From Rhododendron vialii (lineage: Eukaryota; Streptophyta; Magnoliopsida; Ericales; Ericaceae): a DNA stretch of 64,000 bases. Each line of letters opens with the position of its first letter. Position 1 is the stretch's first letter. This document shows positions 33,057-58,451 of the stretch, one piece after another. The notes beneath the pieces are model-generated. The model had not been told where the DNA came from. It did no database searches and saw only the letters and a list, made by a program, of their open reading frames with translations. The DNA is taken from the NCBI RefSeq assembly GCF_030253575.1, contig NC_080567.1:32937501-33001500 (forward strand), written 5' to 3'. A program made the position numbers and the translations under genes.

Positions 33057-33950
33057 GCCGGTTCAAAAAGTATGTCCATTTTTCTCCATATTGGTCTTGA
33101 TTGTATAGATGTCTTGATTCAGTTGTTAGGCATGGTATAGATTTGCTTTTTGATCGAGCACTGCAAGAAACACAGGTCATGTGTCTGAAACTGTCCAATC
33201 AACACTTACTAACATGCATTAGACGGTTCCAAATACTATTGTGTTAGAATCTGTGTTTTAAATCTATGTTCCTGAATTTTTATCTTTATTGGAAATCTTT
33301 GTAGTTTTCCTACCACCAGGTCCAAGACTTGAGTTAATAACCATTCCTCTATGAGAATCTGCGTTCTTATGAGCTTAACTTAAATCTGAAATTGTCCTTA
33401 TTTAAATTTTGAAGCTCCTCCGCCCATCCTCCCGCAAAAACAGCCCACGCTATTGTTTTTTCCTCCGCCATTGAACACTACCACCACCAGTTCGGACACC
33501 GGCAAAAACCAATATTCATGCAATGCTTACAACACAGATTCTTCCAAGTTCACCTCATCTTCTACTGCTCCATCTCCATCGATGTCACTTTTACATACAA
33601 TGTAAGCCGGTTCAAAAAGTATGTCCATTTTTCTCCATATTGGTCTTGATTGTTTAGATGTCTTGATTCAGTTGTTCGGCATGGTATAGATTTGCTTTTT
33701 GATCGAGCACTGCAAGGAACACAGGTCATGTGTCTGAAACTGTCCAATGAACACTTACTAACATGCATTAGACGGTTCCAAATACAGTTGTGTTGAAATC
33801 TGTGTTTTAAATCTATGCATGGTTCTGAATTTTTATCTTTATTGGAAATCTTTGTAGTTTTCCTATACCACCAGGTTCAAGACTTGAGTTAATAACCATT
33901 CAGAATTTGCGTTCTTATGAACTTAACTTAAATCTGAAAATTTTGTCCTT
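32856..33950 (+). repeat. 549-bp tandem duplication of the LecRK 3' end
   Basis: The sequence from AATTTTGAAGCTCCTCCGCC (in the last kinase codons) through the 3' flank is repeated with a period of 549 bp: 32856-33404 and 33405-33950. Differences are few, so the event is recent. The right edge falls inside the arm of the fold-back element at 33908-34333, as GCGTTCTTATGA...CTTAACTTAAATCTG is present in both copies. Confidence 0.9.
33405..33604 (+). pseudogene. Duplicated C-terminal tail of the LecRK at 31011
   Basis: It encodes only the last 65 or so codons (NFEAPPPILPQKQPT to the stop), in frame and nearly identical to the parent. It has no start, no kinase and no promoter. It arose by the 549-bp tandem duplication and may serve only as alternative 3' sequence for the gene. 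Confidence 0.9.
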
Positions 33951-34333
33951 CTTTATTTTATTTTTTTTTGCATTTGTTAGTTTTGTACCAAATTTTTGTG
34001 GGTTACTGATTCGTCACGACGAGACAAATCCAAAAAGTAAAAAAATTTCACTTTTACTCAAGTATTTTTATAAATATTAATTCGTCTCGATGAGACGAAT
34101 CGGGAAAGTAAAAAATTTTCACTCTTAGCCAAGTATTTTGAGAAATAAACGGTCATTTCTCAAAATACTTGGGTAAAAGTGAATTTTTTTTACTTTTCCG
34201 ATTCATCCCGTCGAGACGAATCAATAGCCAATAAAAGTTTGGCGTAACTAACAAATGCAAAAAAAAAATTCAAATAACGACAAAATTCTCAGATTTAACT
34301 TAAGTTTTAAGTTAAATTCATAAGAACGCAGAT
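33908..34333. mobile_element. AT-rich fold-back element related to 2148-2482
   Basis: The arms pair from GCGTTCTTATGAA at 33909 to TTCATAAGAACGC near 34330; the centre is TTTTGAGAAATAAACGGTCATTTCTCAAAA-like, near 34145. ATTCGTCTCGATGAGACGAAT appears within an arm. The left arm is shared with the end of the 549-bp tandem duplication. No gene is present. Confidence 0.7.
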
Positions 34334-34505
34334 AAGTAATGGTGGGACTTTCAAGTTTTTGTTTGTATGGACTCAAAATCAAGGCTAGCTCATGTTTTCA
34401 TTTTCCTAAATAGGACAAATTAAATCATAAAATTCATGAACTTAATCACAGCATCTATAACAAATGTAGGGGTATATATGATAGGAAAAAAATTTGAACT
34501 GCAAA
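34334..34505. other. Short non-coding stretch before the duplicated block
   Basis: No family sequence is recognised. It is the unique sequence left of the segmental duplication that starts at 34506. Confidence 0.5.
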
Positions 34506-35709
34506 AAAATTTCATTAATCTTGAAATTGTTACAAGACTAATAAGAGTAAAGAAATAGTATCATGTTCACAGAATAATCTACTGCCCAATCCGAGACCCA
34601 AAACCTATGATTGACAAGAAACCAATCAGAGGACACTTAATTGGGACCAAGCCCACCTGAATAGGCCGAAGCCCAAACACCCCAAATGAGTTTGAAACCC
34701 ATATCAAAACAATACAACACATAAATGGGCTTGCTCCAGCCCAAACACCACAATCAAACCCTAACCCCACCACCGGTCCGCCGCCCACAACCAAACCACC
34801 AGCCACCAACACCCTAGCACAACCAACACCAATGCCAAGCAGCAGAGCCCAGGAAAATTACTTTCCCACGCTCCCACAAGGCCATAATGGTACAGAGTCT
34901 TTTCTCTTTCTTCGTCTCATTTTCTTTGTCTAATATTTTCGAAATTCATATCAATTTTCAATCGCTTATATCTTCTAATATAAATTTTCAAAAATATGCA
35001 ATATGGATTTTGTTTGATAGTTCTCGATTAGGTCTATAAAACAAAGTATTCGAAATTATGAAAAATATTATAAATTGAAACATATAAGTGTTTAAAGAAC
35101 AACACGTGTAACGAAAAATGACAAAGAAAAAGGGATGGAGGGAGTATATTTTTTGGGTCTTTGTTGGATTTGTAACGTGCACTTGCATTGCATGTGCCCA
35201 ACTTCTTGTGTCTTTAATTCTTTTCACTTTCTAAAAAGAATTTTTCAAAAAATACCCCTTAGATTCTCCCTACTTCCAACATTTCTCTCTCTATCTCTCT
35301 CCACTTATTATCCCTACTATTTTTCAAAAAAAATTTCAAAATCCAAACCAAACACAGCTGCAACACAGATTTTGAGAGATTGGAGTCATGCCACCAATGC
35401 CCTTCTCCATCACACTTTTTTTTGGAATTTATACACTAAGTACTGGGCTCCACATGCGTGGTGGAGAAGAGCGTTGAGTACCACATGACAGTGCCCCAAG
35501 ACCACCCAATAGTTTTTCTTGAAGTTTACGATCAATTATCTCTCACGACAAATAACTTTGTGGAGGAACGACAAAAGCTTGGAAAGGGAGGATTTGGCAA
35601 AGTTTATAGAGGTTTTCTGAGGGAATCGCACTGTGATATTAATGCTGTCAAGAGGATATCAAAGGGGTCAAAACAAGGGAAGAAGGAGCACACATTAAAA
35701 GTGAACATC

Positions 35710-37737
35710 CACTACAACACGAAAGGCTTATAGCGAGGATTTAGTTTCCTCGCTAAAAAGCTGATTTCCTCGCAAAATGTATTTGTGAGGAAATTTTTCC
35801 TCGCCTGTTTTCCTCGCAAAAAGCTTGTCGCAAAAAGAATTTGTGAGGAAAAAAATTTCCTCACTTATTCTGACCCAATTAGCGAGGAATTTTTTCCTCG
35901 CTATAGTTTTTCCTCACTAGACTAATACAATGTTTACAGAATCGGCGAGGAAATTTTTCCTCGCTAGACTAATTTTTTCCTCGCCAATTATAGTTTAGGC
36001 GAGGAAATTTTTCCTCGCTAAAACTCTTGAAACTAAAAATAGATAGTTCTCCAACTCATTTGCTTCTGCACGAATTCGAACCGTGGCCTCTTGTATGGAG
36101 GCATTCACTCCATCCATCACACCAACTTCCTTTCCAGTTTAAACCTTTGCCTTTTTTATATATAAACCTTTTGTACATCCTTTCACCTCTCTAAATTTGT
36201 TTCTTTAAACATTTCTCTCTAATTTTAGTCCATTCGTAGTGTTTCTTTAAACTTGTTTTTTTAAATCATTAACATTATTTGCTTTTATTGAATTTTTTTA
36301 TAATTTAATGTTTTGTTATATATCTTTAATAAATCTTTATACCTTTCTAAATTTGTTTATTTTATACTTCGTTTTAATTCTCTCTAAGTTTAGTAACCTT
36401 TTGTAGTGCCTAAATTAGTTTGAGCCCTTTAAATTTCTGCAAATACGATATTTTTTTTGGTGGGTTAATTTGTTCTTACTGTGTATATGCGCCCATAACA
36501 ATTTTAACTCAACTACAATATTACAATAGTAATAATTTGTTATGTTTCTTTTTAAATGGGGTTAACCTTACATATTTTGAAAATAGATTAGTGATATTTT
36601 GAAAATACATTTCGCAATTATTAAGTACTTTATCTTTTGTTTAGCTTTTCATTAATTTTTTTTGTATGAATTAATAATCAGTTATCTCTACGAAAAGCAA
36701 TCCATATATCCCATGCATTCTTTTTCTGAAAAGCACATCATTCATCCACAAACTTATAATCCCTATGTCCAATCCTTTTTTTGGGTTTATAACAGTCAAA
36801 AGAACAGTACGATAGAATTGATGAATGCACTCTGTTACCTAGAGTGTTCTATTCCTTGGGTATTTATATACAAATAAGGTTACAAGTGATAAGCTTTACA
36901 AAAGATATTGTAAATGATAAAATATAACCACTGAAATGGCTAACATTATTAGGACTTCTTTTCTTGATCAATTGATTTGCACTGATTGGTTGACATCCCC
37001 CCGCAAGCTGATGGTCGAGGCATGACCTTCAGATTGAAACGCAGTGTCCGATGCGGGAAGATGCAAGTCCTTTTGTGTAAAAATATCGGCAATTTGATCC
37101 CTGGTGCTAATATACTGGACGGTTAAATCACCCCGAGCGACTTAATAATCTTTGTATTCAAACAATAAATTTTAGTAAAATTTGAACATACTGACATTGT
37201 TAACAATTAATTTCCGTTGGGGAAAAGTGAATTCATATAATTCGTGTGAAACATATTTTTATTTCATCAATTCAATGCGATTGACGAGGAAACTATTTTT
37301 TTCCATTTATCACTTTTTTTTTTTAATAAATTTGCTAATGATATTGAACTATGTAGTTGATTATCCCTTACCATCGTGATACTAAAGATACATGAACATA
37401 ATTAATAATGACTTACATATAAAAAATTTAATGAGTCCTAAAAAAGATGACAAAATATTTTTTGCCAAAAAGTTACATTTAGCAAGGAAAACAGATTTCC
37501 TCGTAAAAGGGTTACATTTGGCGAGGAAATTATTATTTCCTCGCCAAATGTAACCCTTTTGCGAGGAAATTATTATTTCCTCGCTAAATATAACTTTTTG
37601 GCGAGGAAATTAAATTTCCTCGCTAAATGTAACTTTTTAGCGACGAAATTGAATTTCCTCGCAGATTGTGTACTTTTAGCGACGAAATCTCTTTTCCTTG
37701 CCATATTTCCTTGCAATAGGCCTTCCGTGTTGTAGTG
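35710..37737. mobile_element. Non-autonomous CACTA element 2, 2028 bp
   Basis: The ends CACTACAACACGAAAGGC and GCCTTCCGTGTTGTAGTG and a 3-bp duplication ATC (35707-35709 and 37738-37740) define it. The right block at 52588-52600 is the empty site and reads GTGAACATCATCAGCC. Subterminal arrays of GCGAGGAAATT/AATTTCCTCGC lie at 35730-36020 and 37490-37700. A tRNA-like stretch lies at 36072-36128 on the minus strand. A copia fragment is nested at about 36790-37140. No CACTA transposase is present. Confidence 0.95.
36790..37140 (-). mobile_element. Ty1/copia fragment (end of pol, purine tract, part of 3' LTR)
   Basis: On the minus strand 37140-36995 reads the end of a copia RNase H region (QYISTRDQIADIFTQ ... 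SLRGD). It is followed by a purine tract (CTTGCGGGGGGA) and an LTR starting TGTCAACC at 36993 that holds a TATATAAATA box. The 5' part of pol is missing and the LTR is truncated. It lies inside CACTA element 2, so it inserted into or was captured by that element. Confidence 0.7.
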
Positions 37738-37971
37738 ATCATCAGCCAGTTGAGGCACAGGAATTTGGTTCAATTCATCGGATGGTGCCACGAGAAGAAA
37801 GAACTATTGCGTACTCCTTTATGAGTACATGGAAATTGGAAGCTTAGATTCCCATCTCTTCAAAGGAAAAGCTTGTTGACATGGGGAACAAGATATAAAA
37901 TTGCTCAAGGTATGGCCTTTGCATTGCACTATCTACACAAAGAATATTGGGAGCACTGTGTGGTGCATAGG

Positions 37972-38327
37972 CAGGGGCGGAGCTATGTTGGGGCCCCGGC
38001 TCCAGCTCCCCGAGCATCCAAGTTTTAAAAAAATTTATTTTGTACATACCTTATTTTAAATATTATTGATAATTATTCGTGTATAACTACTTATAATATT
38101 AATAATTTTTGTTCGATTTGATAAAAAATTAGTTATTTTATATTCTCAATTTCGCTCATAAATAAAAAATAAGCACATGATAATTGAATTACCCTAAAGA
38201 ATCATTTTAATGTACAAATGTAGTGAATCGAAGAGCAAAAACCTTATGATATAATAAGTATATGTTCCGATAAAAAAAATGTCTTTTAAGCCGGCCCCCT
38301 AGACTCAAAATCCTGGTTCCGCCACTA
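37972..38327. mobile_element. Non-autonomous hAT element in the kinase catalytic loop, left copy
   Basis: The element starts CAGGGGCGGAGC and ends GGTTCCGCCACTA, with an 8-bp duplication TGCATAGG (37964-37971 and 38328-38335), which is the His-Arg part of the HRD motif. The identical insertion is present in the right block (52825-53180), and its right part in the third copy (to 62713). It therefore predates the duplications. Confidence 0.92.
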
Positions 38328-38816
38328 TGCATAGGGTTGTAAAATCAAGCAATGTGATGTTGAACTCGAATTGCAATGCCAAATTGGGAGATTTTGGGTT
38401 TGCTAGGCTTGTTGATCCCAAAAAAGAGTCGCAAACAACAATGGAGGCAGGGACTAGGCTACATCACACAAGAATGTGTCGAATGTCTATAGCTTCAGAA
38501 TCGTGGCTTTGAAAATAGCATGTGGCAGAGACCATAGGGTGAAAGAAGATGAGACAACAAATTTGGTGGAGTGGGTCTTTAAGGGAGGGGGAAACTGCTT
38601 GTAGCTGCAGACTTAAAACTGGGTGAAGATTTCAATAAGCACGAAATGGAAAGATTGTCGGTCCTTGGTCTCCGGTGTGCACCCATCCCCGGCCATAGCA
38701 AGCTCCAGCCTTCCATAAGAGAAGCGATTCAAGTTCTTAATTTTTCAGGCTCCATCGCCTTGTCTTCCATCCGCGATGCCCGTGGCAATGTATTCGACTC
38801 CGAATTTCATGGCTAA

Positions 38817-40133
38817 ATCTTCACCTCTTCCATTATCCGATGATGAATCCCACTGTTTACTACGTACTGAGGCATCCAAATGGATTGTTAAGACGTTCCC
38901 TCGTGAGCACAATCCCTTTTGTGTTTGATTTTGTTTTTAGGAAGTGGAGAATATTATATATCCAACCTTGGACTTCTTTTACCACTAGGCTGGAGATCCC
39001 AAAGTGTAAATATTTTTGAACTATTGCTATGAACCTGAAATTCACGAATTTAATTCTTCTGTATATAAAACGCCTAACCGAATTAGTATAAGTAAACGTA
39101 TCGCGATGTTTCATTGGAAACGGACAATCTGAGAAAAAACATTCTTGATTTCGATACACACTCTGCATGTGTGCGTATATACGAAAATACCATGCATCAC
39201 ATTCAAGCTAGAGAGACAAAGAGATACCTGGATAGTAAAAAGCGATACCAGGAACGCAATTTCAAAACGCAACTCTAAAAACAATCGTATCTAAATTTAA
39301 AGCCTTTCAATACACGTTGACACGCAGTTTCATGGCTAAATCTCGTCTATTTATTAACCGCTTTACAGCTAGCCGAAACGGTTTAAGGGTGGAACCGTGG
39401 AAGTTAACCTGAATCTTGAACGCTGATAGCGAAAAAGGTTGGCAACCCGTCCAGTCCTTCCAGTCCATGTGTTAGTTTTGTTTCGTGGAAAAATTAGACT
39501 GGCCTCCCTGAGGTTTTCAATAGTAAATACTATTGAATAGGGTCCGGCCTCTCAGCAGTTCAATGGTTTGAATTGGACGAGACAGTTTAGATCGGGACAG
39601 TCCATTGGTAGATTTAACGGTTCGGATTTTCTCATACACTTTTACTGGTAAGAATACACTCTTATAGGTAAAAGTGTAAAAATACATTCAAACAGCTAAT
39701 TGCAGCAAATGAACGATCCCAATCAGGACTGTCTCTTCACAGGGACTGAACAAGATCCATTTTAACTCCCATTTGTTGACTCCTGAAATTTTAGTCAATC
39801 CTCAACCTTTTATTTGTATTGCCAATTTGAACCCCTTAGCTAGGGTTGGCAACAGAGCGGGGTGGAAGTGAATACCACTGTCCTCCCCGAACCTATATTC
39901 AATCCCAGTTCCCACCCGATCTCAACAGGGAAATTTCTTTAATGACCCTCCATCTCCATCTCAAATGGGGAACAGAAATTCCCGTGGAAAATCGGGGATA
40001 TGTACCTAAACAAAAAAACCTTGCATTGTGCCACACAATTTCCTAACGAAATCAAAAAACACAGAATAGGTACAAACCATTCGCAATAAACATCCTTCGC
40101 CTTTGTCATTCAAAAGAAACATCCATAACATTT
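38817..40133. other. 3' flank of the left-block pseudogene, no supported gene
   Basis: The same sequence is at 53670-55002. Minus-strand frames near 38860-39168 are open in both blocks but have no recognisable features. 39850-40010 is the dispersed GGGGTGGA-type repeat. Confidence 0.6.
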
Positions 40134-41138
40134 TGTGGGGGCTCCGTTCCGATTGGTTCGTACTTTCTGAATGTGGGTTCTTGGTTAGCTCCCGACTCCT
40201 TGATTAGTCCTGCAAAACGAAGCACGACTAAGAGACCACACCGGAGGTCCTCCGGGATGGCCCTCCGGTGCAAGAGTCAGATTGCTTGCCAGAAGGAGTT
40301 AGGGATTGGGAGCTAGGGTTTTGTTTGAGCGTACCTCTTCCAAGTAGGCATAATGGGATATTTATAAGGAACCCTTCGCTTGGTCTCCAAGATTGCACCA
40401 ACGCTCGACACGCGTCGGCTGATGTCACTGTTGCATCACGTTTAGGGTTTTGCAACCGTTTTCATGATGAGCTGGCACCTTCACGTGCCACCATCATTGC
40501 TCTCATAACCGTTCGGATGACGTCACAACCATCATCATTGCCATGGTTGCTGTTCTGACGCGGATGAGCTGGATCGTCGGCCAAGCCATGCTCGGCACCG
40601 AGCATGTTGTGGGACCTTCGGCAATTATCCAAACGAACGTATCCTCCAACCCGAGCAGGTGTAGGGAATGGAGCATCAGAGGAAGTGGAAATTAGCGGGA
40701 CCCTCGGCTACAGGGACCCTCGGCTACGGTTGGTGAACCGAACGCCCGAAGAAAGATATCTTGGAGTTGAAAGGAATATTGGATCACGCTCGGAATGGCC
40801 CGAGCCATTTTGCTCGGCCTGCTACAATAGCCCCTCAACCCATGCCAAAGCTCTTCGCTCGGTATGGGTTGATTTAAGACTTAGCCGATCTGGTCCCTTC
40901 GGCAGATCTAATCCGAGCCCCAAATAAGGTGACAGCTGTCGAGCATTCGAACGTGTGTGTCAGTTGAAAGGACGTCTTGGCAGACGAGGAGCCGGCTGGC
41001 GTGGGCGAGGACTTCAGTCGCCACGTGTCACGTAGAGGTTGGCGAGGGGTTCGGCGATGAAATGATGGGCGGGGATTTCGAAAAGGCCCGCTCCGCTTAT
41101 AAATAGTGGTGAGGGAGGAAAGAGAAAGTTCTTCTGCA
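40134..41138 (-). repeat. 3' LTR of the Tat element
   Basis: The LTR end nearest the flank, read on the plus strand, is TGTGGGGGCTCC, and 40134-40439 matches the 5' LTR remnant at 51088-51393. A minus-strand TATA-like TTATAAATA lies near 40352-40362. The inner border is uncertain; I place it at 41138 because a pyrimidine tract (CTTTCTCTCTCT, 41139-41150) would be the purine tract on the minus strand. Confidence 0.65.
41098..41105 (+). promoter_or_regulatory. TATA box for the antisense gene
   Basis: TATAAATA lies on the plus strand near the inner edge of the 3' LTR. A C/T-rich leader follows and ends at a splice donor (CAG|GTATGT, 41244/41245). This makes it the likely start of the antisense transcript. 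Confidence 0.55.
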
Positions 41139-41631
41139 CTTTCTCTCTCTAACGTCTGGAGTTTCTCTCTCTAAGATTCCGTTCCAGAACTCAACTTAAA
41201 CCCAGATCTTCAACTTCAACCCCCATTCCAACATAAATCTTCAGGTATGTCACCGATTCTTGTCGTTTTACTCTTTCTCTTGCTTTTCATGTTTATTTTC
41301 TGGGTTTTTGGGATGATTTTGGGGGTTTTTGTACTGTATAAAAAGTAGAGTACTGGGATGAACGATGATGTTCATCCCTGAACTCAACTTGTTCTTCCGA
41401 GCCCCCATAGAATGTCTGGGGCTGGCCGAATGACTTCTACTGATGGGGATAAATAACCGAACGATCCCCCACTCTTTTGTTTGCCGAACGTAGGGAGTCT
41501 TTTAAGAAGTACCGAGCCCAATATAGGTTAGCATGTGACTCGTGAGCCGATAAGAAAAAACCGAACTTCCAAACGATCTTCTTTGCCGACGCAGATTTCA
41601 ATAGCTTAATACCCCTTTGTTCTTTTCCTAG

Positions 41632-44079
41632 GTCTGGCTCACGAGGTCATCGACGTGTCTTCAGACTCGGACTGCTCGGTGACCGAATCCGATCGTCAAT
41701 TCATCAGCGAACTTATCGAGTGGCGTAGGCTGAGGAATAGCCGAGCGATTAATTCTGCCTCAACGAGAATGTCGGCAACCTCTCCTGTGTCTGACGATTC
41801 TAACGCCGAGCGCGATCACGAGTATGCCGCCGACGACTTCCTTACGGAGCCCGAGATAAGTTTCTCCCCAGAAACACAATCCGAAACCGAGCCACAGTTG
41901 GGGCAGGAAGCCAAGTCAAGGCTCGCGTCAGGAGCCGAAGCTTCGACATCGGCTCCGAGCGACGCCGACCTTTTTGACAAGGGTTTGCTATGTCCCTACG
42001 CTCACTATTTCAGCGGCAGCCCTGGGGAGTACGAAGCCTTCCGAACGAAATACAATATTCCCGAGGATGTTCTGATTCATAGAGTTAAGAGCACCGACAT
42101 AAAAGACCATAGGGATCACCGTCCCGAGCATATAACCGTGCCCCTTATGGCCATTTGCGAGGCCGGGCTTCGGTTCCCAATTCACCCCTTCCTCAGGGAA
42201 ATTCTTTGGAAATTCAGTTTAGCACCCCATCAACTCACGATCAACAGTTACCGAATCATTATGTCGGTAATTGCTTTGATCGAGAGTCAAGATTTGGACT
42301 TCACGCCGACGGACCTCTTTTACACATACACCATGTCCAGACATGGGAAATCTGGCCGTCAGTATTTGTCGACGCGTCCCAAAAAGGAGCCTCTGGTAGA
42401 CGGACTTTCGGATACAGACAAATGGGCTGATTTTTACCTCGAAGTGCATGGAAACTTCGAGTTCGGCGATGGTCTCCGTCGATTCACCGTTCCAAAAGTG
42501 GCTGATACGAGAGGTGATAAGACCGAATGTGTTTAAGTTATTTATTACGTCTTTCTTTTGTCTTCTTTTCTGCTGAAAGCATTTCTTGAATTGCTGTTGT
42601 TTTTGTAGAGCTCGACCCTATTTCCAAGGGGCTTAACACCAACTCTAGGGAGAAGGCGAGCGAGACGCTGCTTGCCCAGGTTTGCCATCACGCTCCGACC
42701 CTTCTTGACTACCGTCCCTCTTATAAAGGTGTGCTGAGGAAGAAGGGGAAAGGGAAAGAGGTCGCTCAAAGCAAGAAAAAGACACCAAGTGCTCCAGCTG
42801 CCGAGGTTGTACAAAAGAAGAAGGGAAATCCCAACGCCGTCGGACTCCGAAAGAAGAGGCAACAGGGAGGGGTGAAATTGCCGAGGATCGGATTTACAGC
42901 AGAGGAGTGGCTTACTCCGTTCGATTCTGCCGAACTTCTCCAGCCCTCCTTCAAAGATATGTCAAAAAGGAACATTCCAAGGCCTGTGATCCCTACTAAG
43001 TCGGCAAATCTTGGCCGAAGCCGAAGCTCTTCTGAGCAGCAGGGTCAGAAGGAGAAGAGACAGAAAACGTCAGAGGATGTTGTTTTGCCGACCGTTTCTC
43101 AATCTGTGCCTCTTGACACAATTCCAGCCCCTCTGTCAAAGGATCAGGGGAATCTTGTTGAACCACATATCGACCTTACTGATCCAGCCACCGAGGCCGC
43201 CGTCCGTCGCCAGTTCAGCCCTTCGTACACGATGCCTGATGGTAGGGTTCTCCTTCAGAACGACTCAGTCAAAGAGGAGCCGAACCTTGCCATCACACTT
43301 CTGAGGGGGCTGGCCCTGCCGAGGGATTACGATCAGGTTCCTACCAACCTCCTTCCAGGTCTTGGTGAGATGTGTTCTCATCTTGTTCAGGTTTGTTCTC
43401 TTCTCTCTCTTCTCTATCTTTTTCCTATTTATTTCCTCTCTTTTTTCACTTTGCTCTTTTGATTAGGCTGGGCAAGCTGCGCTTAAGGCGTATGACAAAG
43501 CTTCCAAAGTCTCTGCCGAACGGGAGAGGTATAGGTCTGACCGAGATTCCTAGCGAACCAAGTTTAGGATCTCGGAGCAGCAAGTCAAGGACGAGGAGGT
43601 TGAGATGGAACGGTTGAAGAAGGAGCTTGCTGAGATGAGGGTCGCCGCCGAAACTGCTGAGGCCGAACTGAAAAAGCTAAAGAGGGAGGAGAAAGAGAAG
43701 ATTACGGCTGCCGACGCCCGTCGTTATGAGGCCGGGATTCAAAGAGCCGCCTTAGAGTATACCCAGATTGCTCACAAGATGGTAAACGACGAACTTGAAG
43801 CTCGGTTACCTGATTTCTTCAAGCTGGGATATGCTGCCGGTGCCGACGCCATGGCTGGTGTTATGGCGATTCAGCCTGAGTCGGGTTTTCTGAAGCAACT
43901 TCCCGAGCCGGCTGTGCCTGACCTTGACCTTCCATACACCGAGGAGGAGGTCAGCCTCTTCCTCCTGAGGATGATGAAGAGATGACCGATGTGCCTGCCG
44001 TCGATCAACAGCAGAAGGTTGGTGAAGGTGAGAGCCATCCTCAGGCTCAAGACAAGGTCGTCGAAGATACCCTAGTTTA
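41632..44079 (+). pseudogene. Spliced antisense gene of the Tat element (putative gypsy-type transposon domain protein)
   Basis: Four plus-strand coding segments join in phase by normal splice signals: 41632-42513, 42609-43390, 43467 to about 43970, and a short end to about 44079. A non-coding first exon ends at 41244. The first segment is acidic and Ser-rich and then carries the block FPIHPFLREILWKFSLAPHQL, resembling the 'putative gypsy type transposon' domain (Pfam Transposase_28). The later part is Lys-rich, then a coiled coil (ERLKKELAEMRVAAETAEAEL). Decay is visible: the expected start before SSDSD is GTG, a TAG interrupts at 43551-43553, and a 1-nt shift near 43950 separates the last codons. 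Its function in the element is unknown. It is opposite in strand to gag-pol. Confidence 0.7.
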
Positions 44080-45011
44080 GGATTTTCCATAAGTATTTTG
44101 TTTTTGAATATTTTGAACTTTGCTTCATTGGACTGGATGGCACCGAACGTTTTGGATTTTGCCATGCCAGATGTAATAGTTTTAAGGGGGGTAGGCATCA
44201 AATGTTTCACTAAGCCGAGCCCTCTTCGTAGGAGTTTTTGAATTCCAAGTTTATGTTTAAATGATGACTTAGAAGGAATTCTCAACTTTGTTACTGCATT
44301 GAATTTTTTCTCCATGCCTTAGAAATATTTTCTGATTTTGGCTGCCGAAGGTTAAGCAACCTTGGCTTGTTTTCAAGGTTTTGATAGTTACTCATGATAG
44401 CCCCTACTTTGGTGTAAGGCTCGGCTCAACGTGCCAGTCTTATGCCAAGGTAATAGGTAGAGTAACTGTTTCATGTGGCCATTTAGTTCAAGTCAAATTA
44501 TGAACATAGCCGTACTGAGGATAAGCTTTCAGGTTCATCTATTGTTTTCTGTTTGAAATTTAAGTTGTCCGAGTTGTTTATGATTTACTCGTAACAGCCC
44601 CAGCGCTGGTATAAGGCTCAGCTCAAAATGCCAGCCTTGTACCAATGTAATATGTTTAAGTAAATGTTTGAAGTGGCAATTTGTTCAAGTCAAATTATGA
44701 ACGTAGCCGAACAATATGTTTATCATGTTGTGGCTGGAAATCAAATTGTCCGAGCCATAACATGTTTGCAGTAAAGAAATCCGAACGTAACTGTAATGTT
44801 TAGAATACCGAGCTATAGTGATCGAAGTTTGTAATCAAATATAGAGAACATTGATGCCTCAGAAGTAGGAGAGATTTTTCATTGAATAAAAATATGGTCA
44901 AGACAAGTACAGTTTTTTGGTGAGAGCAAAGTAATAGACTTTAGAGCTGGTGAGATAGATTGAGACCGAGGAGAGACTTCAAAGGTAGGCCTTCCTGAGG
45001 TTCAGAGCGTT
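44080..45011. other. Non-coding stretch of the Tat element
   Basis: It lies between the antisense gene and gag-pol. The two transcripts converge here. Imperfect repeats of GTATAAGGCTCAGCTCAA-like sequence occur near 44415 and 44610. No coding sequence is supported. Confidence 0.6.
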
Positions 45012-48000
45012 TCAGAGGTTCTCAATTTCCCTTCCTTCTTTGTCTTCTAACTTGTACGAGCCATTGCCGACCTCTTTAATCACCCTGTAGGGTCCTTCCC
45101 AATTTGGTTTGAATTTTGTCTTTTGATTGGCTCGGACAACCTTCCTCCAGACCTAGTCATCGGTTCTGAACTTCTTAAGCCTTACACTTCGATTGTAGCC
45201 CCGAGCGACTTCCTGCTGATAGTTGGCTAACTTGAGCTGAGCATCGTCTCGCTTTTCTTCGGCTAAGATTAGCTCGGTTGCCACTGCATCATTGTTAGAT
45301 TCTAGATCAAAAGTTTCGGTACGCAGGGTCGGGAACTTTGATTCCAGTGGTATGACAGCCTCCATGCCGAAGGCCATTGCAAACGGAGTTTGTCCAGTGG
45401 AGCGTCTGGGAGTGGAGCGGTAGGCCCAAAGGACCCTAGGGAGTTCTTCGGCCCATTTTCCTCGTTTGGAGTCTAGCCGACGTTTGATGCCAGCGCATAC
45501 AGTCTTGTTAGTGGCTTCGGCCTGGCCATTGCCCTGGGGGTAGGATGGGGTCGAATTGAAGAATCTGATTCCGAATTCAGCACAGAGTCCAGTTAACTCT
45601 TTTCCGACGAATTGGGAGCCATTATCCGAAACAATTGCATAAGGCACACCGAACCTCGTGACGATGTTCCTCCAAACGAATCGCCGAACGTCTGCTTCAG
45701 TCGTTGTTACTAATGGCTCGGCTTCCACCCACTTTGAAAAGTAATCCGTTGCAGTGATCAAGAACTTGAAGCCCCCAGGGGCAGTTGGAAGTTTGCCAAC
45801 TATATCCAAGCCCCACTGAGCAAAGGGCCATGGACTAGTGATAGGTTTGAAAGATTGAGCGGGCTGCCTTGGTATAGGGGAAAAAAGTTGGCAAGGCTTG
45901 CACTTTTTGACCACTTCTTCACAATCTTTCTTCATTCCTTTCCAATAGTATCCTTGACTGAGAGCTCTTTGACTTAATGAACGGCCGCCAGAGTGACAAC
46001 CACAGTTGCCAGAGTGGAGCTCGGTTAAAATAATTGGGACCTCGGTTGGGTGAACAACTCGAAGATATGGCCCAGTGAAGCTTTTCCTGTAGAGTTGGCC
46101 GAGCTTAGAGATCCAGTAGTAGGCTGCTTTGCTGCGTATACGGTGGGCTTCCTTTTTTTCCGAGGGTAGTGTATCGTCTTTGAGGAATGAGACGATTTCA
46201 TCCATCCAACTTGGGCCGAGGGAGATGTTGAATACTTTTTCCGAGACTTCGAAGGTTGGCTGGTGGATCTCGCCGAGGCTGATGTGTCGGTATTCAGATG
46301 CTTTACATGCCGAGGCCAGACTTGCCAGAGCGTCGGCATGAGCGTTGTTCTCTCTGTTGATCTGTTCGATTTGAAATCCTTTGAACCCTTTGATTAGCTC
46401 TAGAGCGGTAGCTTGATACTTAATCATTCTTGGGTCCCGAGCTCCATAATCGCCTGTTACTTGATTGACGATCAGCTGAGAGTCGCAGAACACTTGTAGG
46501 TCTTCAACTTGCAAACTTGCCGCGGCTCGGAGACCAACAAGCAGAGCTTCATATTCAGCTTCGTTGTTTGTGGCTTGGAAGTTGATTGTGATGGCACTTT
46601 CATGAAGGACGCCACAAGGGTTTACAAGAACAACCCATGCACCCGAGCCGTTGCTGTTTGATGCCCCGTCAACGTGCAACTTCCAAACGTCTCCGCTAAA
46701 TAAGTTCCAAACTTTCCGAGCCTCTTGTTGTTCTAGCATCCCATAATTAGGCTTGACCAATGTTTCCTCGTCCGGGCTTCCAGGGGTGAATTCAGCAATA
46801 AAGTCTGCCAATACTTGTGCCTTGATTGCCGTTCGAGGCTCAAAGTGGATATCAAAATTTGCTAATTCGACCGCCCATTGAGATACTCTGCTTGACAGAT
46901 CAGCCTTCCTCAAGAGATTTTTAAGTGGAAACTCCGTGAGAACTATGATGGGGTGCTCTTGAAAATAAGGAAGAAGTTTTCGAGCTGCTGTAACCAACGC
47001 TAAAAGAAACTTCTCCAGTGGCAGATATCTCGTCTGTGCTGGGAGTAAGGTTCGGCTAGAAAAGTAGATTGGTTGATCCTCAAGGCCTTCCCGTCGGACA
47101 AATGCCGAGCTCACGGCATGTGGAGAGACAGCTAAATAGAGATGAAGAGTTTCAAAAGCTACTGGTTTGACAAGAAGAGGGGCCGAACAGAGATAAGATT
47201 TCAGCTCGGTGAGGGCTGCATCACAATCTTCCGTCCACTTGAAACTTCGTCGGCTTTGCTTCTTAAGAGTTTGGAAGAAGACATGGCATTTATCCGACGA
47301 GTGGCTAATAAACCTATTGAGAGCCGCTGTCATCCCAGTTAGCTTCTGAATTTCCCGAGGAGTGGATGGTGGTTTTAATTGCTGAATAGCTAAGATCTGG
47401 TTCGGATCCGCCTCGATACCGCGCCGAGTAACCAGGTAGCCGAGGAACTTCCCTGAGCTAACTCCGAAGGCGTACTTGTCGGCGTTAAGCCGTAGCTTGT
47501 GCTTTTTCAAGATTGCAAAGACCTCGGCAAGATGAGAGAGGTGATTCTCGGCCTTGAGACTTTTCACCACCATATCGTCAATATAAGCCTCCATTATTTC
47601 TCCGATGAGAATTCCGAACAACAGGTATACCATTCTTTGGAATGTGGCTCCCGCATTCTTAAGACCGAACGGCATAACCAGGTAACAGAAGAGGCCTCTA
47701 GGTGTGATGAATGCCGTCTTTTCCATATCGTCGGGATCCATGGCTATCTGGTGGTAACCTCGATAAGCGTCTAAGAAACTCAGCCGAGCGTGACCCGCCG
47801 TTGCGTCTACCAATTGATCAATCTTTGGAAGGGGTAGACAGTCTTTCGGACAAGCATCATTCAAGTTGGTGTAGTCCACGCAAACTCTCCATTTTCCATT
47901 CTTCTTTTTCACCACCACAGGGTTCGTGAGCCAAGTGGGGTATTGTACTTCTTTGATGGCGCCAGCCTCGAGGAGTTTACCAACTTCTTCATTAACTGCG

Positions 48001-50966
48001 TCGGCATGAATACTGGCCGACCGCCGAGGCTTCTGAATGACAGGCTTTGCTGATTTTGAAACTTTGAGGGAGTGCTGGATGAGCTTTGGGTCAATGCCTG
48101 ACATATCATACGGCGTCCATGCGAAAACTTCAATGTTGCTTTTGAGGAACTGCAAGGTTTCGTCACTCTCAGCTTGAGACAAACCCGCGCCGAGCATGAA
48201 ATATCGCGATGCATCCTCGTTAAGTGGGAATTTGATAAGATCCGTAATTGATTTCTTTTCAGGAAGAGATCCGACGTCTTCGAGGACTGGTTTGTCAGGG
48301 ACTTCAACCCAATGTACTCTTTTGGGGCTTGATGACTTTCCAATGGCCGAGACGTAACACTGTCTGGCTTGTAACTGGTCTCCAAATAGGTCTTCTTGTT
48401 TGCCGTTAGCGCCGATGTACCTGACCACTTGATGGTAGGTTGAGGCGACGGCCTTAATTGAATGGAGCCAATTTCGGCCAAGGATTCCGTTGTATGGGCT
48501 CGGTGCATCTACAACGATGAATTCTTGATTAGAAGCAACCGAGCCCGTAACGACAGGGAGGGTAATCCTTCCGAGAGGCCAAACTGGAGTGCCACTAAAA
48601 CCAATTAAAGGGACTTCTGCTGGTAAAAGGCACGACTGTGGGATTTTGAGCTCGTTGAAGAGAGATAAATACATCACTTCTGCCGAGCTTCCTTGATCAA
48701 TAAGCACCCTTTTGACCGAGTGAGTTGAGATTTGGATTGTGACCACCAGAGCGTCGCTATGGGGGGTTTGGATGCATTGAAGATCTTGCTCGGTGAAGGT
48801 AATTGACCAGGGACGCTCGAGCATTTTGACTCTTTTTGGAGCACGATCGATGGAAAAAATTTGGGTAACTTTCTCAGCTTTGACAAGCTCTTGACGAAGC
48901 TGTTTTGCTGCCTCCTTTGTTGTTGACCCATGAATAACGTTGATTACTCCGACTGGACGTGGAATAAGGTTTTGTCCACCAGCGTTCGGCTGTCTCCTCG
49001 GCATCTTTGTCCAATCGATATGATCATCAAGAAGTCCTTGTGCCGTTAGATTTTCCAAAAGTGCCTTATAGGGAGCGCAAGCCGTGGTGTAATGCCTGAG
49101 CTCGTTATGATACGAGCATCTCTTCCGGTTGTTGTTATTGCCTTCTTCTGTGTTCAATTTAGGAGGGTTTGGCCAAACAAAGAACGGTTCCCTCTCTATC
49201 GTACGGAGGAGGAAATAAATTGGCTCTTTGAAAACCGTGGTTTCAGCTATATAGTCATGAGCTTTCGGCCCCTTTTTGTCTGCCACCTTGACTGTGTTGA
49301 CCTGCTTCTTCGGCTGGACAGCGACCACAGGCTTCGGTGGTGCGATTTGGGGCGTGGGGACATGAAGGCTTTGAGGTACGATTGAGTTTTGTCCTCCTTG
49401 GAGTTCTCGCACGGCGAGGAACTCTTCGTAGGAGCAGAACTGTTCTACCGTCCTCATTAGCTCATTCATTCCGTGAGGCGCCCTTATTGCCAGCTCATCC
49501 AAGATCTTGCTTCCTGTTTCCAACCCATTCTTGAAGTTCCTTGCCGCCCAGTATTGATCAACACCGGGTATCTCGTTAAACAATTGCCAGTAACGTTCGG
49601 CATACTTCCGAAGCGTCTCGCCGGGCCTCTTTCTCATCTGTGCCAAGGCATCTTCTTCCTTGGCTTGCTTGTTGCTAGTGATGAACCGATAGTTAAAAGC
49701 TCTTTCAAGCTCTTTCAAACTGTGGATCGATCCGGCCTCTAGTTGGTTGAACCAAAGCAAGCCGAGGCGCCCAAGACTTGAGGGGAATGCTTTGCACATG
49801 ATGGCATCGTCGTCGGTGACGCATGAGATGGTGCTTCTGTAACTGATGAGATGGGTGTATGCCTCGGTCGTGCTGGGATCGAACTTCTGGAACTTTGGGA
49901 GATGTAGACCTAGCTTCGGCAACGTGGCTTGGATCTTTGCCGAGAAGGGTGATTCCGTCAGCTTTTTCAACTGGTACTCGTGGGTTGGCCGAGGGGGATG
50001 ACCTTCCCGAGCGTTTCGAGACTTCTTTGATGCTCGGCATTCTTGTTCCCTTTGTTTTCCTTCGTTCTCATCCTGCCGACGTTGAAATCCCCTCTCCCTC
50101 TTCTCTATGGGGACCTTTCTGTAGTCTTCTTCTGGAAGATTTTCGGTATGGTAAACTCTTCGTTGGCTAGGGCGATCGTCTTGCCGAACGATGACACTTA
50201 CACTCCTTTCACGGTTTAGCCTCCGACCGCTTACTGAATTTGTTGGTCGGCCTTCGTAGACCTTTTCCCGAGGGACTTCATCATGTTCGATCCGATGGCT
50301 TTGGGGACCTTTCCCGTTTCTTCTCGGCGTTCGGCTTCTTTGCCGTTCGGATTTGTACGGGATGAGAGCCTGATCGTTGTCTTGAAATTCCACGGTATCG
50401 TAGCTTTGGGAGCCCTGGGAGTATTCGTCTCCAGCCGATGAACTCGAGAAAATGGTATGCAGGCTCCCCTCTCGTCGTCCTTATCTTCCCCTATGTCCCG
50501 CACCATTGCCGAGACGTTTATGAACTGGTGAGAGCTGCTGCCTAAGGCGAGCGCTATCCCCTGTTCGATGGTCTGTCAATGGTGGGTCCAGGCGGTCGTG
50601 GACTGAGATTCGTTTTGGCCGCGCGTCAGCACCCAAAGGAGGAGGGGGTGGCAGATTTCCTCTCCGGCGCCGACCCTGAGATCCAGAGTGGGATGCCGTT
50701 GGAAATTCTTTGGCCTTAATTTTTTCGATCTCCATTCGTAGGACGGCTACATCAGTGTTGGTCTGTTCTTGCTGCTGTTCTAGCATTTGTACATATGCCA
50801 GAGCATCTTCACTCAGGCCGACTGGACGTTGGATGGAAGAGCTCACGCCTGGTGGAGTAAATCCAAGAGGGTGAGATGGGGAGGCGTTGATACCAGTTTC
50901 GGAGGTGATGTGCAAAGAGGAACTGAGGGGTTGAAAGAGAGGAGGTGGTGGTGGTGCTCCGCCCAT
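45012..50966 (-). pseudogene. gag-pol polyprotein of the Tat element, with nonsense codons
   Basis: One minus-strand frame from ATG 50966 covers about 1,984 codons, interrupted by TAA at 50481-50483 and TAG at 45153-45155, and ending at TGA 45012-45014. The longest open part is 50480-45153. Order: Pro-rich N-terminus, gag domain (LHLPKFQKFDP... region), protease (DQGSSAE), reverse transcriptase with YIDDMVV, RNase H, a second RNase H (HVDGASNSNGSGAW), and integrase with an HHCC finger and the Asp-Asp-Glu blocks (LDIVG, SDNGSQF, NGQAEATN). The first stop is in the gag N-terminus and the second is about 47 codons before the end, so the copy cannot make its full product, though most domains are open and the copy is not very old. 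Confidence 0.9.
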
Positions 50967-51066
50967 TTTTCTTTGGAGGAGACTGGTGGAGATCTGGAGG
51001 GGTGAGGTTTTTAGGTACGAACGAGGCGGTCGAGGTGGAGGAGCCGCCGTGGATCTGAGAATCAAG

Positions 51067-51084
51067 TTCACGTCGGGTTCACCA
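51067..51084 (-). other. Primer-binding site of the Tat element
   Basis: On the minus strand TGGTGAACCCGACGTGAA begins three bases after the 5' LTR end and starts with TGG, the complement of the tRNA CCA end. I do not assign the tRNA. Confidence 0.65.
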
Positions 51085-51087
51085 AAT

Positions 51088-51393
51088 TGTGGGGGCTCCG
51101 TTCCGATTGGTTCGTACTTTCTGAATGTGGGTTCTTGGTTAGCTCCCGTCTCCTTGATTAGTCCTGCAAAACGAAGCACGACTAAGAGACCACACCGGAG
51201 GTCCTCCGGGATGGCCCTCCGGTGCAAGAGTCAGATTGCTTGCCAGAAGGAGTTAGGGATTGGGAGCTAGGGTTTTGTTTGAGCGTACCTCTTCCAAGTA
51301 GGCATAATGGGATATTTATAGGGAACCCTTCACTTGGTCTCCAAGATTGCACCAACGCTCGACACGCGTCGGCTGATGTCACTGTTGCATCAC
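51088..51393 (-). repeat. Truncated 5' LTR of the Tat element
   Basis: The 306 bp match 40134-40439 with a few differences and then break off after GTTGCATCAC. Most of the U3 part is missing. Confidence 0.9.
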
Positions 51394-51441
51394 AGTGAGC
51401 CCTGGGAGTATTCGTCTTCGCTTGGTCTCCAAGATTGCACC
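51394..51441. other. Patchwork junction between the Tat element and the right block
   Basis: 51397-51417 (GAGCCCTGGGAGTATTCGTCT) is a copy of 50410-50430 in the same orientation. 51415-51441 (CTTCGCTTGGTCTCCAAG...) is a copy of an LTR stretch at 40374-40400. Then right-block sequence starts at AAAATTTC. Two short templated pieces in 48 bp point to template switching during repair, or to a faulty assembly join. Confidence 0.8.
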
Positions 51442-52341
51442 AAAATTTCATTAATCTTGAAATTGTTACAAGACTAATAAGAGTAAAGAAATAGTATCAT
51501 GTTCACAGAATAATCTACTGCCCAATCCGAGACCCAAAACCTATGATTGACAAGAAACCAATCAGAGGACACTTAATTGGGACCAAGCCCACCTGAATAG
51601 GCCGAAGCCCAAACACCCCAAATGAGTTTGAAACCCATATCAAAACAATACAACACATAAATGGGCTTGCTCCAGCCCAAACACCACAATCAAACCCTAA
51701 CCCCACCACCGGTCCGCAGCCCACAACCAAACCACCAGCCACCAAAACCCTAGCACAACCAACACCAATGCCAAGTAGCAGAGCCCAGGAAAATTACTTT
51801 CCCACGCTCCCACAAGGCCATAATGGTACAGAGTCTTTTCTCTTTCTCTGTCTCATTTTCTTTGTCTAATATTTTCGAAATTCATGTCAATTTTCAATCG
51901 CTTATATCTTCTAATATAAATTTTCAAAAATATGCAATATGGATTTTGTTTGATAGTTCTCGATTAGGTCTATAAAACAAAGTATTCGAAATTATGAAAA
52001 ATATTATAAATTGAAACATATAAGTGTTTAAAGAACAACACGTGTAATGAAAAATGACAAAGAAAAAGGGATGGAGGGAGTATATTTTTTGGGTCTTTGT
52101 TGGATTTGTAACGTGCACATGCATTGCATGTGCCCAACTTCTTGTCTCCCTACTTCCAACATTTCTCTCTCTATCTCTCTCCACTTATTATCCCTACTAT
52201 TTTTCAAAAAAAATTTCAAAATCCAAACCAAACATAGCAGGTTGCAACACAGATTTTGAGAGATTGGAGTCATGCCACCAATGCCCTTCTCCATCACACT
52301 TTTTTTTGGAATTTATACACTAAGTACTGGGCTCCACATGC

Positions 52342-53669
52342 GTGGTGGAGAAGAGCGTTGAGTACCACATGACAGTGCCCCAAGACCACCCAATAGTTTT
52401 TCTTGAAGTTTACGATCAATTATCTCTCACGACAAATAACTTTGTGGAGGAACGACAAAAGCTTGGAAAGGGAGGATTTGGCAAAGTTTATAGAGGTTTT
52501 CTGAGGGAATCGCACTGTGATATTAATGCTGTCAAGAGGATATCAAAGGGGTCAAAACAAGGGAAGAAGGAGCACACATTAAAAGTGAACATCATCAGCC
52601 AGTTGAGGCACAGGAATTTGGTTCAATTCATCGGATGGTGCCACGAGAAGAAAGAACTATTGCGTACTCCTATATGAGTACATGGAAATTGGAAGCTTAG
52701 ATTCCCATCTCTTCAAAGGAAAAGCTTGTTGACATGGGGAACAAGATATAAAATTGCTCAAGGTATGGCCTTTGCATTGCGCTATCTACACAAAGAATAT
52801 TGGGAGCACTGTGTGGTGCATAGGCAGGGGCGGAGCTATGTTGGGGCCCCGGCTCCAGCTCCCCGAGCATCCAAGTTTTAAAAAAATTTATTTTGTACAT
52901 ACCTTATTTTAAATATTATTGATAATTATTCGTGTATAACTACTTATAATATTAATAATTTTTGTTCGATTTGATAAAAAATTAGTTATTTTATATTCTC
53001 AATTTCGCTCATAAATAAAAAATAAGCACATGATAATTGAATTACCCTAAAGAATCATTTTAATGTACAAATGTAGTGAATCGTAGAGCAAAAACCTTAT
53101 GATATAATAAGTATATGTTTCGATAAAAAAAATGTCTTTTAAGCCGGCCCCCCAGACTCAAAATCCTGGTTCCGCCACTATGCATAGGGTTGTAAAATCA
53201 AGCAATGTGATGTTGAACTCGAATTGCAATGCCAAATTGGGAGATTTTGGGTTTGCTAGGCTTGTTGATCCCAAAAAAGAGTCGCAAACAACAATGGAGG
53301 CAGGGACTAGGCTACATCACACAAGAATGTGTCGAATGTCTATAGCTTCAGAATCGTGGCTTTGAAAATAGCATGTGGCAGAGACCATAGGGTGAAAGAA
53401 GATGAGACAACAAATTTGGTGGAGTGGGTCTTTAAGGGAGGGGGAAACTGCTTGTAGCTGCAGACTTAAAACTGGGTGAAGATTTCAATAAGCACGAAAT
53501 GGAAAGATTGTCGGTCCTTGGTCTCCGGTGTGCACCCATCCCCGGCCATAGCAAGCTCCGGCCTTCCATAAGAGAAGTGATTCAAGTTCTTAATTTTTCA
53601 GGCTCCATCGCCTTGTCTTCCATCCGCGATGCCCGTGGCAATGTATTCGACTCCGAATTTCATGGCTAA
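52342..53669 (+). pseudogene. LecRK kinase pseudogene, second subtype, right copy
   Basis: This copy of the left-block pseudogene lacks the CACTA insertion, so the N-lobe reads on through VNIISQLRHRNLVQFIGWCHE. The frame then breaks at KKELLRTPI (stop near 52677). The hAT element (52825-53180) sits in the HRD motif, the catalytic Asp is missing (HRVVKS), and later stops are shared with the left copy. The lectin and membrane parts are absent. Shared defects show that the gene was dead before the block duplicated. Confidence 0.9.
52825..53180. mobile_element. Non-autonomous hAT element in the kinase catalytic loop, right copy
   Basis: It has the same position, ends (CAGGGGCGGAGC...TTCCGCCACTA) and 8-bp duplication TGCATAGG (52817-52824 and 53181-53188) as the left copy at 37972-38327, with few differences. 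Confidence 0.92.
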
Positions 53670-55002
53670 ATCTTCACCTCTTCCATTATCCGATGATGAA
53701 TCCCACTGTTTACTACGTACTGAGGCATCCAAATGGATTGTTAAGACGTTCCCTCGTGAGCACAATCCCTTTTGTGTTTGATTTTGTTTTTAGGAAGTGG
53801 AGAATATTATATATCCAACCTTGGACTTCTTTTACCACTAGGTTGGAGATCCCAAAGTGTAAATATTTTTGAACTATTGCTATGAACCTGAAATTCACGA
53901 ATTTAATTCTTCTGTATATAAAACACCTAACCGAATTAGTATAAGTAAACGTATCGCGATGTTTCATTGGAAACGGACAATCTGAGAAAAAACATTCTTG
54001 ATTTCGATACACACTCTGCATGTGTGCGTATATACGAAAATACCATGCATCACATTCAAGCTAGAGAGACAAAGAGATACCTGGATAGTAAAAAGCGATA
54101 CCAGGAACGCAATTTCAAAACGCAACTCTAAAAACAATCGTATCTAAATTTAAAGCCTTTCAATACACGTTGACACGCAGTTTCATGGCTAAATCTCGTC
54201 TATTTATTAACCGCTTTACAACTAGCCGAAACGGTTTAAGGGTGGAACCGTGGAAGTTAACCTGAATCTTGAACGCTGATAGCGAAAGAGGTTGGCAACC
54301 CGTCCAGTCCTTCCAGTCCATGTGTTAGTTTTGTTTCGTGGAAAAATTAGACTGGCCTCCCTGAGGTTTTCAATAGTAAATACTATTGAATAGGGTCCAG
54401 TGAATATGGTCCGGCCTCTCAGCAGTTCAATGGTTTGAACTGGACGAGACAGTTTAGATCGGGACAGTCCATTAGTAGATTTAACGGTTCGGATTTTCTC
54501 ATACACTTTTACCGGTAAGAATACACTCTTATAGGTAAAAGTGTAAAAATACATTCAAACAGCTAATTGCAGCAAATGAACGATCCCAATCAGGACTGTC
54601 TCTTCACAGGGACTGAACAGGATCCATTTTAACTCCCGTTTGTTGACTCCTGAAATTTTAGTCAATCCTCAACCTTTTATTTGTATTGCCAATTTGAACC
54701 CCTTAGCTAGGGTTGGCAACAGGGCGGGGTGGAAGTGAATACCACTGTCCTCCCCGAACCTATATTCAATCCCAGTTCCCACCCTGATCTCAACAGGGAA
54801 ATTTCTTTAATGACCCTCCATCTCCGTCTCAAACGGGGAACAGAAATTCCCGTGGAAAATCGGGGATATGTACCTAAACAAAAAAACCTTGCATTGTGCC
54901 ACACAATTTCCTAACGAAATCAAAAAACACAGAATAGGTACAAACCATTCGCAATAAACATCCTTCGCCTTTGTCATCCAAAAGAAACATCCATAACATT
55001 TT

Positions 55003-56819: not shown

Positions 56820-57094
56820 TGGTAGTGCTTCCTCATGATCAAGCTTTTTTATTACTTTTGTTGAAAAACAAAAAGCATACTTGTTTGTGGGTATAGGGGG
56901 GGGGGTGTTTAACGAGTTTGGTAGTCTGGCGGTGGTGGCCAAATAGTCAATTGAGATGGGGTTATATGGTAATATGCATGTAATGATCTTTGGTTAGTAA
57001 GATTCTTCGTTAATCATATACTTTGCATATGCTTTTGTTTCATCTTTACATGATTTGTTGTTCCTTCGAAGTTAGATCAGGAACTCACAAAGAA
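56820..57094 (+). other. 3' flank of the HIPP gene
   Basis: It contains the likely 3' untranslated region and a G-run at about 56898-56906, then unique sequence up to the plastid-derived insertion. No gene is seen. Confidence 0.6.
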
Positions 57095-57475
57095 TATGAG
57101 TACCTTATTCCACGTCAATCATTTTCTTGTAACTATTCAATACCCTTATGAAAAATTGATCACATCCGAGCGATTTCGGGGTCGAATCCACTTTGAATTT
57201 GATAAATGCATTGCTTGTGAAGTATGTGTTCATGTATGTCCTATAGATCTAGCCGTTGTAGATTGGAAATTGGAAACCAATATTCAAAAGAAACGGTTGT
57301 TTAATTACAGTATTGATTTCGGAATCTATATATTTTGCAACAATTGCGTTGAGTATTGTCCAACAAATTGTTTATCAATGACTGAAGAATATGAACTTTC
57401 TACTTATGATCGTCACGAATTGAATTATAATCAAATTGCTTTAAGTTGTTTAATTACCACTGTCAATAATTGACA
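57095..57475 (+). pseudogene. ndhI: Plastid ndhI fragment
   Basis: The sequence from [19 protein letters not shown] to the middle of the gene matches the plastid NADH dehydrogenase-like subunit I, a protein with two 4Fe-4S clusters. The 5' part is missing. The first cluster motif [12 protein letters not shown] is complete. In the second, the first Cys is replaced ([12 protein letters not shown]), so a cluster could not form. The end is frameshifted ([12 protein letters not shown]). It is not functional. Confidence 0.93.
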
Positions 57476-57525
57476 ATTATTGGTATTTTCTCTATCACAA
57501 TTATTGCGAAAAAACATCTATAAAA

Positions 57526-58431
57526 ATGAGCCTCGAACAGTTTATTTGTGAAAATGTATATATAGCCAAAAACGGGCCACACCTAAAATCAGGTCAAGTT
57601 CTAATTGTTCAAGTTGACTCTGTAATAGTAATACGATCAGCTAAGCCCCATTTGGCAACTCCAGGAACAACTATTAATAGCCATTATGGGGAAATCCTTT
57701 ACGAAGGTGATACATTACTTACATTTCTATATGAAAAATCGAGATCTAGTGATATAACGCAAAGTCTTCCAAAAGTGGAAAAAATGTTCGAAGTGCATTT
57801 GATTGATTCAATTTCGATGAATCTAGAAAAAAGGGTTGAGGCTTGGAATCAATGTATAACAAAAATTCTGGGAATTCCTTGGTGATTTTTGATTGGTGCT
57901 GAGCTAACTATAGTGCAAAAACGAATCTCTTTGGTTAATAAGATCCAAGAGGTTTATCGATCCCACGGGGTGCAGATCCATAATAGGCATATCGAACTTA
58001 TTGTACGTCAAATAACATCAAAAGTGTTGGTTTCAGAAGATGGAATGTCTAATGTTTTCTTACCCAGAGAACTAATTGGATTGTTGTAAGTGAAATGAAT
58101 GAGGCGTGCTTTGGAAGAAGCAATCCATTACCAAGTTGTCTTATTGGGAATAACAAGAGCATTTCTGAATACTCAAAGTTTCATATCTAAAACGAGTTTT
58201 CAAGAAAACTGCTCGAGTTTTAGCAAAAGCTACTCTTCGAGGTCGTATCGATTGGTTGAAGGCTTGAAAGAGAATGTTGTTCGGGGGGATATGATACCCA
58301 TTGGTACCGGATTCAAAGGATTAATTCCCCCTTTAAGACAACATAATAACATTCCTTTGGAAACCAAAAAGCATAATCGATTCAAAGGGGAAATGATAGA
58401 TATTTTGTTCGACCCCATAAAAATTATTTGA
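57526..58431 (+). pseudogene. rpoC2: Plastid rpoC2 fragment (C-terminal part)
   Basis: [21 protein letters not shown] through [15 protein letters not shown] and [18 protein letters not shown] to [10 protein letters not shown] matches the C-terminal part of the plastid RNA polymerase beta'' subunit. A TGA follows ILGIPW (57883-57885), another stop is near 58087, and a frameshift lies near 58205. It joins ndhI at about 57480-57525 without plastid spacer order. Confidence 0.92.
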
Positions 58432-58451
58432 TTCTTTTCTTTCAAAGAATT

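Follow-up and report, generated by a model that had tools for sequence, protein, structure and literature searches.

Two near-identical receptor kinase pseudogene blocks in Rhododendron vialii, separated by a truncated Tat element and a patch that matches it

Results

The window, a 64,000-base stretch of the genome of Rhododendron vialii, contains two direct copies of a segment carrying a kinase pseudogene; the pseudogene blocks adjoin a cluster of lectin receptor kinases. L-type lectin receptor kinases (LecRKs) consist of a legume-lectin domain and a kinase domain. Both domains are matched in the open reading frames at 9083–11239 and 30933–33053, and a third frame (24076–24942) matches the lectin domain only. 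The left block (L, 34506–40133, plus strand) holds a kinase-only pseudogene of the LecRK type with its flanks and has a CACTA element inside. The right block (R, 51442–55001, plus strand) holds the same pseudogene with neither the CACTA element nor the Tat retrotransposon, and runs unbroken into the sequence from 55002 onward. The Tat element sits between L and R, not within L.

By the pieces tested, the pseudogene is not an L-type LecRK in domain content, with kinase matches and no lectin match. In R its pieces span 52324–53666 (plus strand), with a stop, frame changes and a MITE within; two of the four pieces tested match a kinase model and none a lectin model. The piece of L that is interrupted by the CACTA element has a kinase match under the curated cut-off. 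The damage in R falls in sequence that is nearly identical in L. The MITE (52826–53182) has TGCATAGG on either side, which we take to mark it as hAT-like; it is common to L and R and is present, at least partly, in a further relative at 62548. As L and R have the damage and the MITE in common, the segment was already a pseudogene when it was copied.

Three other features were noted in the surroundings. A head-to-tail duplication of about 550 bp (94%) occupies 32856–33955, with the copies meeting at 33404/33405, and begins within the 3′ end of the LecRK frame at 30933–33053. Just left of L lies an imperfect palindrome (33920–34306) with arms of about 190 bp, which may be a MITE; aligned with its reverse complement over 402 columns, it is 76% identical. 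To the right of R, frames resembling chloroplast genes occur in nuclear DNA at 57054–59240, with 4Fe-4S matches and a Proton_antipo_M match (E=4.9e-23). These frames are presumably ndhI-like (4Fe-4S) and ndhB-like (Proton_antipo_M), with an rpoC2-like frame (57454–57882) between them, and we take their gene order to be scrambled.

Self-comparison of the window aligned L with R in three stretches (34500–35209 with 51436–52145, 35265–35709 with 52145–52593 and 37738–40134 with 52591–55002) at 98.5–98.9% identity. Leaving the CACTA element aside, L and R differ at 31 of 3544 aligned positions, by 24 transitions and 7 transversions. Two of the transversions (51440–51441) belong to the junction patch described below; without the patch positions the divergence is 29/3542, or 0.82% (CI 0.55–1.17%). 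Four indels separate the blocks, one of 56 bp in L only and three of 4, 14 and 1 bp in R only. A fifth listed event, of 3 bp, was not counted, as it is the second of the two target-site copies flanking the CACTA element. The blocks are thus near-identical over 3542 aligned bases, with few base and indel differences, as the preliminary description had stated. Chance resemblance is excluded on this alignment, which extends over kilobases at about 99%.

An older partial relative of the block is located at 62548–63590 (plus strand) in two pieces that are 89–92% alike. It covers five of the 29 substitutions, and the half of the block next to the Tat element is out of its reach. Read by eye, it sides with L at 38231, 38267 and 38725 (R derived) and with R at 38300 and 38707 (L derived). 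About 275 bp at 62972–63245 occur in this relative and are missing from L and R at the matching kinase site.

CACTA transposons have termini that start with CACTA and generate a 3-bp target duplication, and both features are found at 35710–37737. The element (2028 bp, no strand assigned) ends in CACTACAACACGAAAGGC and CACTACAACACGGAAGGC, which match over 18 bp with one mismatch, and is flanked by ATC on both sides. R is without the duplicate and carries the unoccupied site GTGAACATCATCAGCC, so that the perfect empty site reported earlier for this element stands. By frame length, the transposase gene of autonomous members was not found (stop-free stretches of at most 94 codons in 35710–37740), and the element is classed as non-autonomous. 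Cut-and-paste elements can excise, and the empty site could in principle reflect precise excision; the CACTA site alone is therefore no proof that R was never hit. The boundary of the Tat element is the stronger marker for the insertion-free state of R.

The Tat element (40134–51393, minus strand) encodes a polyprotein at 45153–50480 on the minus strand, with the order reverse transcriptase (RT), RNase H (RH), a second RNase H-like domain and integrase (INT). The matches are RVT_1 at 857–1015 of the polyprotein, two overlapping RNase H models at 1082–1209, RVT_3 at 1270–1388, and the zinc-binding (1478–1534) and core (1552–1648) parts of integrase. From its position, RVT_3 is probably the additional RNase H (aRH). 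In the cited part of PMC6317226, two RNase H domains mark Tat elements, an aRH between RH and INT is a feature of Ogre and Retand, and an extra frame with Transposase_28 occurs in 23% of Retand elements. The element here has an RNase H-like domain in addition to the one adjacent to RT, at a position that fits both Ogre and Retand. A Transposase_28 match (E=2.9e-6; 27.9 bits against a cut-off of 26.2) is found in a plus-strand frame (41610–42533) opposite the polyprotein. The element may be a Retand, with Ogre as an alternative; it resembles Retand, as far as the cited account goes, in the second RNase H-like domain between RH and integrase and in the Transposase_28 frame; it differs in its truncated 5′ LTR (PMC6317226). 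Upstream of this frame, at 41095–41640, a promoter-like TATAAATAG, a CT-rich leader and an intron-like GT...AG were seen by eye and seem to belong to the opposite-strand gene itself.

The left LTR (the 3′ LTR of the element; 40134–40825, minus strand) is about 692 bp long and starts with TG at 40134; its other end is placed at 40825, where, read on the element strand, ACA next to a purine-rich tract suggests the LTR border. The right LTR (the 5′ LTR; 51088–51393, minus strand) is truncated, with 306 bp remaining and three differences from the left one. The pair aligns at 40133–40439 and 51087–51393 (307 bp, 99.0%). Homology in the right LTR ends at 51393, whereas the left LTR continues past 40439, and a counterpart of 40440–40825 was not found elsewhere in the 64-kb window. 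The left boundary of the element is the LTR end TGTGGGGG at 40134, which has the same start as the right LTR and lies exactly where L stops. R reads through the insertion point, with ACATTTT followed by CTTATGCG. On the other side, a CATTT target duplication was not found within 51394–51460, and the block does not continue after the right LTR. A complete insertion has two full LTRs and a 4–6 bp target duplication, and this element has neither. The Tat empty site claimed in the preliminary description is upheld in its exact left boundary at 40134 and in the continuity of R; a two-sided empty site is unprovable, as the right LTR is truncated and has neither the duplication nor the right-hand flank.

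LTR elements usually persist at least as a solo LTR. R carries no visible trace of the Tat element, not even a solo LTR, and plain tandem copying of an already filled block is therefore excluded. Two earlier claims are borne out by this absence, namely that the insertions hit a copy separate from R and that a simple tandem duplication after the insertions fails to explain the arrangement.

The transitions between L and R were also compared by position. Nine of the ten nearest the Tat element (39435–40110) have A/T in L, as against five of 14 elsewhere (Mann–Whitney p=0.043 for 24 sites; 0.033 for 22 sites, with one adjacent pair dropped). This pattern is suggestive of methylation spreading from the Tat element into L, but we make no such claim, since it was not significant in a scan with a free boundary, where 110 of 2000 permutations attained the observed value.

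The truncated right LTR is joined to R by a short patch (51394–51443, plus strand) made of 3 bp, a 21-bp match to the Tat interior and a 28-bp match to the LTR, followed by R. No source was found for the first three bases (AGT, 51394–51396). Bases 51397–51417 are identical to 50410–50430 in the Tat interior (21 bp), and 51416–51443 are identical to 40374–40401 in the left LTR (28 bp). Compared with the right LTR, the 28-bp piece has one mismatch, at a CpG (CpG-to-CpA). Block homology begins at 51442, so that 48 bp of the patch lie outside the block. The overlap is 0 at the first join and 2 bp at each of the last two, and the two template pieces run in the direction of the patch. Elsewhere in the window, the 45 bases at 51394–51438 find an exact match of up to 23 bp, compared with at most 14 bp in 300 letter shuffles. 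The junction shows filler traceable to nearby sequence, microhomology at the joins and loss of flanking sequence, features of end joining with templated insertions, with the pathway read from the sequence. We regard the patch as the signature of such end joining or of template switching. It should come from at least one real molecule; an assembler requires far longer overlaps than 0–2 bp, which argues that the patch is real DNA. Insertion of R into the Tat LTR was also considered, and this was dropped, as the lost part of the LTR is absent rightward up to 64000.

Discussion

The duplication of the dead receptor kinase segment in this window is most likely real. As the truncated right LTR meets R through a patch that matches the element, every history needs an extra break repair or a duplicating join. 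The likeliest order, to which we give slightly better than an even chance, is duplication, then insertions into L, then a deletion repaired with filler. A dead receptor kinase segment would have been duplicated in tandem beside the LecRK cluster. Next, the left copy alone would have taken up the CACTA and Tat/Retand elements, in either order. The right LTR of the Tat element would then have suffered a double-strand break, mended by end joining with templated insertions. This step would have cost the outer part of the LTR with its target duplication, what remained of the left unit, the former junction of the duplication and the beginning of the right unit; it would have left the 48-bp patch, built from the Tat element, joined to R. 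The sequence itself shows two copies, a clean CACTA site, an exact Tat boundary on the left, a truncated LTR and a patch with its matches; what we infer is in what order the events came, that the units stood in tandem beforehand, that a deletion took place and by which pathway the break was repaired. The preliminary description rightly excluded a tandem copy of the filled block, and overlooked both a duplication preceding the insertions and the truncation of the right LTR.

Divergence of the LTR pair (3/307; 95% CI 0.2–2.8%) does not differ from that of the blocks (29/3542; Fisher p=0.74), and insertion after duplication is therefore allowed. This dating fits both the order above and the one-step exchange considered below. 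The older partial duplicate of the same pseudogene and the nearby LecRK frames count for duplication first. Against it, one more event is needed than in a one-step exchange, as the deletion must also have taken out the junction of the original tandem. Neither 600 bp to the left of L nor 798 bp to the right of R recurs beside the other copy, and the tandem unit before the deletion is therefore invisible. The template at 50410, 1 kb from the break, is farther away than expected for short-range filler. The 28-bp template would lie 11 kb away if it came from the left LTR, which also counts against duplication first. The nearby right LTR is an equally good template, since its CpG-to-CpA mismatch could postdate the patch.

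Both the deletion and its filler have precedents. At maize p2/p1, a deletion between neighbouring units left a complex filler (50 bp) for which two nearby sites served as templates, and in the cited part of that work, as here, related adjacent units are joined by a deletion with complex filler (PMC2686159). The maize filler came from a downstream repeat unit and the event fused two genes, whereas here a pseudogene copy is linked to a retrotransposon by a patch that matches the latter (PMC2686159). In Arabidopsis, filler or templated insertions are described, in the portion cited, as a hallmark of polymerase-theta end joining (PMC10923293). The likeness lies in filler pieces of at least 6 bp taken from nearby DNA, short microhomology and sequence loss; the Arabidopsis work, in that portion, deals with induced breaks and known genetics, and here we read the pathway from a single old junction (PMC10923293).

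A tentative alternative is that a haplotype with the block, the CACTA element and the Tat element was joined to the empty single block of the homologue, after a break or stalled fork in the right Tat LTR and short template switches inside the element, so that the patch would be the duplication junction. Fewer events are needed. The 28-bp piece is exact to the left LTR and has one mismatch to the right LTR, although this mismatch could be a later change in the right LTR. Alleles of outcrossing plants can differ by 0.82%, and the block divergence lies within that range. Joining of homologues at non-homologous places is, however, rarer than intrachromosomal deletion. With the left LTR as second template, each jump would lead further back (51393 to 50410 to 40374 to 34506), an order that suits template-switch models such as microhomology-mediated break-induced replication (MMBIR) as outlined in PMC2621351. 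It is conceivable, if somewhat doubtful, that a repair fork left the Tat LTR, switched twice within the element and restarted on the insertion-free homologue. In the cited part of the MMBIR model, serial template switches primed by microhomology produce complex junctions and duplications, and this junction is similar; the model was framed for human copy-number variants, and here the duplication may predate the patch (PMC2621351). The unequal exchange between haplotypes proposed earlier is in this sense possible, and the patch could be its junction, but it is not required.

It is improbable that both haplotypes of a heterozygous plant were placed in series by the assembly, as the preliminary description had also proposed. 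One filled and one empty copy, about 0.8% apart, do resemble haplotypes in series, and an LTR element is a typical contig end. However, the join is gapless, with 0 N in 64,000 bases, and it contains two exact Tat fragments, rearranged and overlapping by no more than 2 bp, which is too short for an assembler. After the Tat element, the filled haplotype would be expected to continue with the missing part of the LTR, then its target duplication and the flank CTTATGCG, all of which are absent. A falsely filled gap at the junction may still occur in an N-free window. The criteria given for false haplotypic duplication, in the cited part of PMC9516828, are half read depth, a gap or unsupported sequence between the copies, and discordant reads. 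Duplication followed by plain insertions, with no further rearrangement, would explain the CACTA site fully and the left Tat boundary too, but the sequence itself contradicts it and we consider it very improbable, as the right LTR is truncated with neither target duplication nor block continuation and the patch is templated.

The locus represents a common sort of genome rearrangement whose history can be read, and is not novel in kind. None of the literature matches listed was a paper on this locus; they gave precedents for the processes, and we make no claim that the locus is unpublished. Where two copies differ by whole transposons, the pair can be mistaken for an assembly artefact, and a templated patch whose overlaps are shorter than an assembler needs offers a read-free test of a real rearrangement against haplotypes in series. 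Should the exchange between homologues be true, a single step would convert the presence or absence of two transposons between alleles into a contrast between adjacent copies on one chromosome. The locus offers a natural case of break repair remodelling a receptor kinase region.
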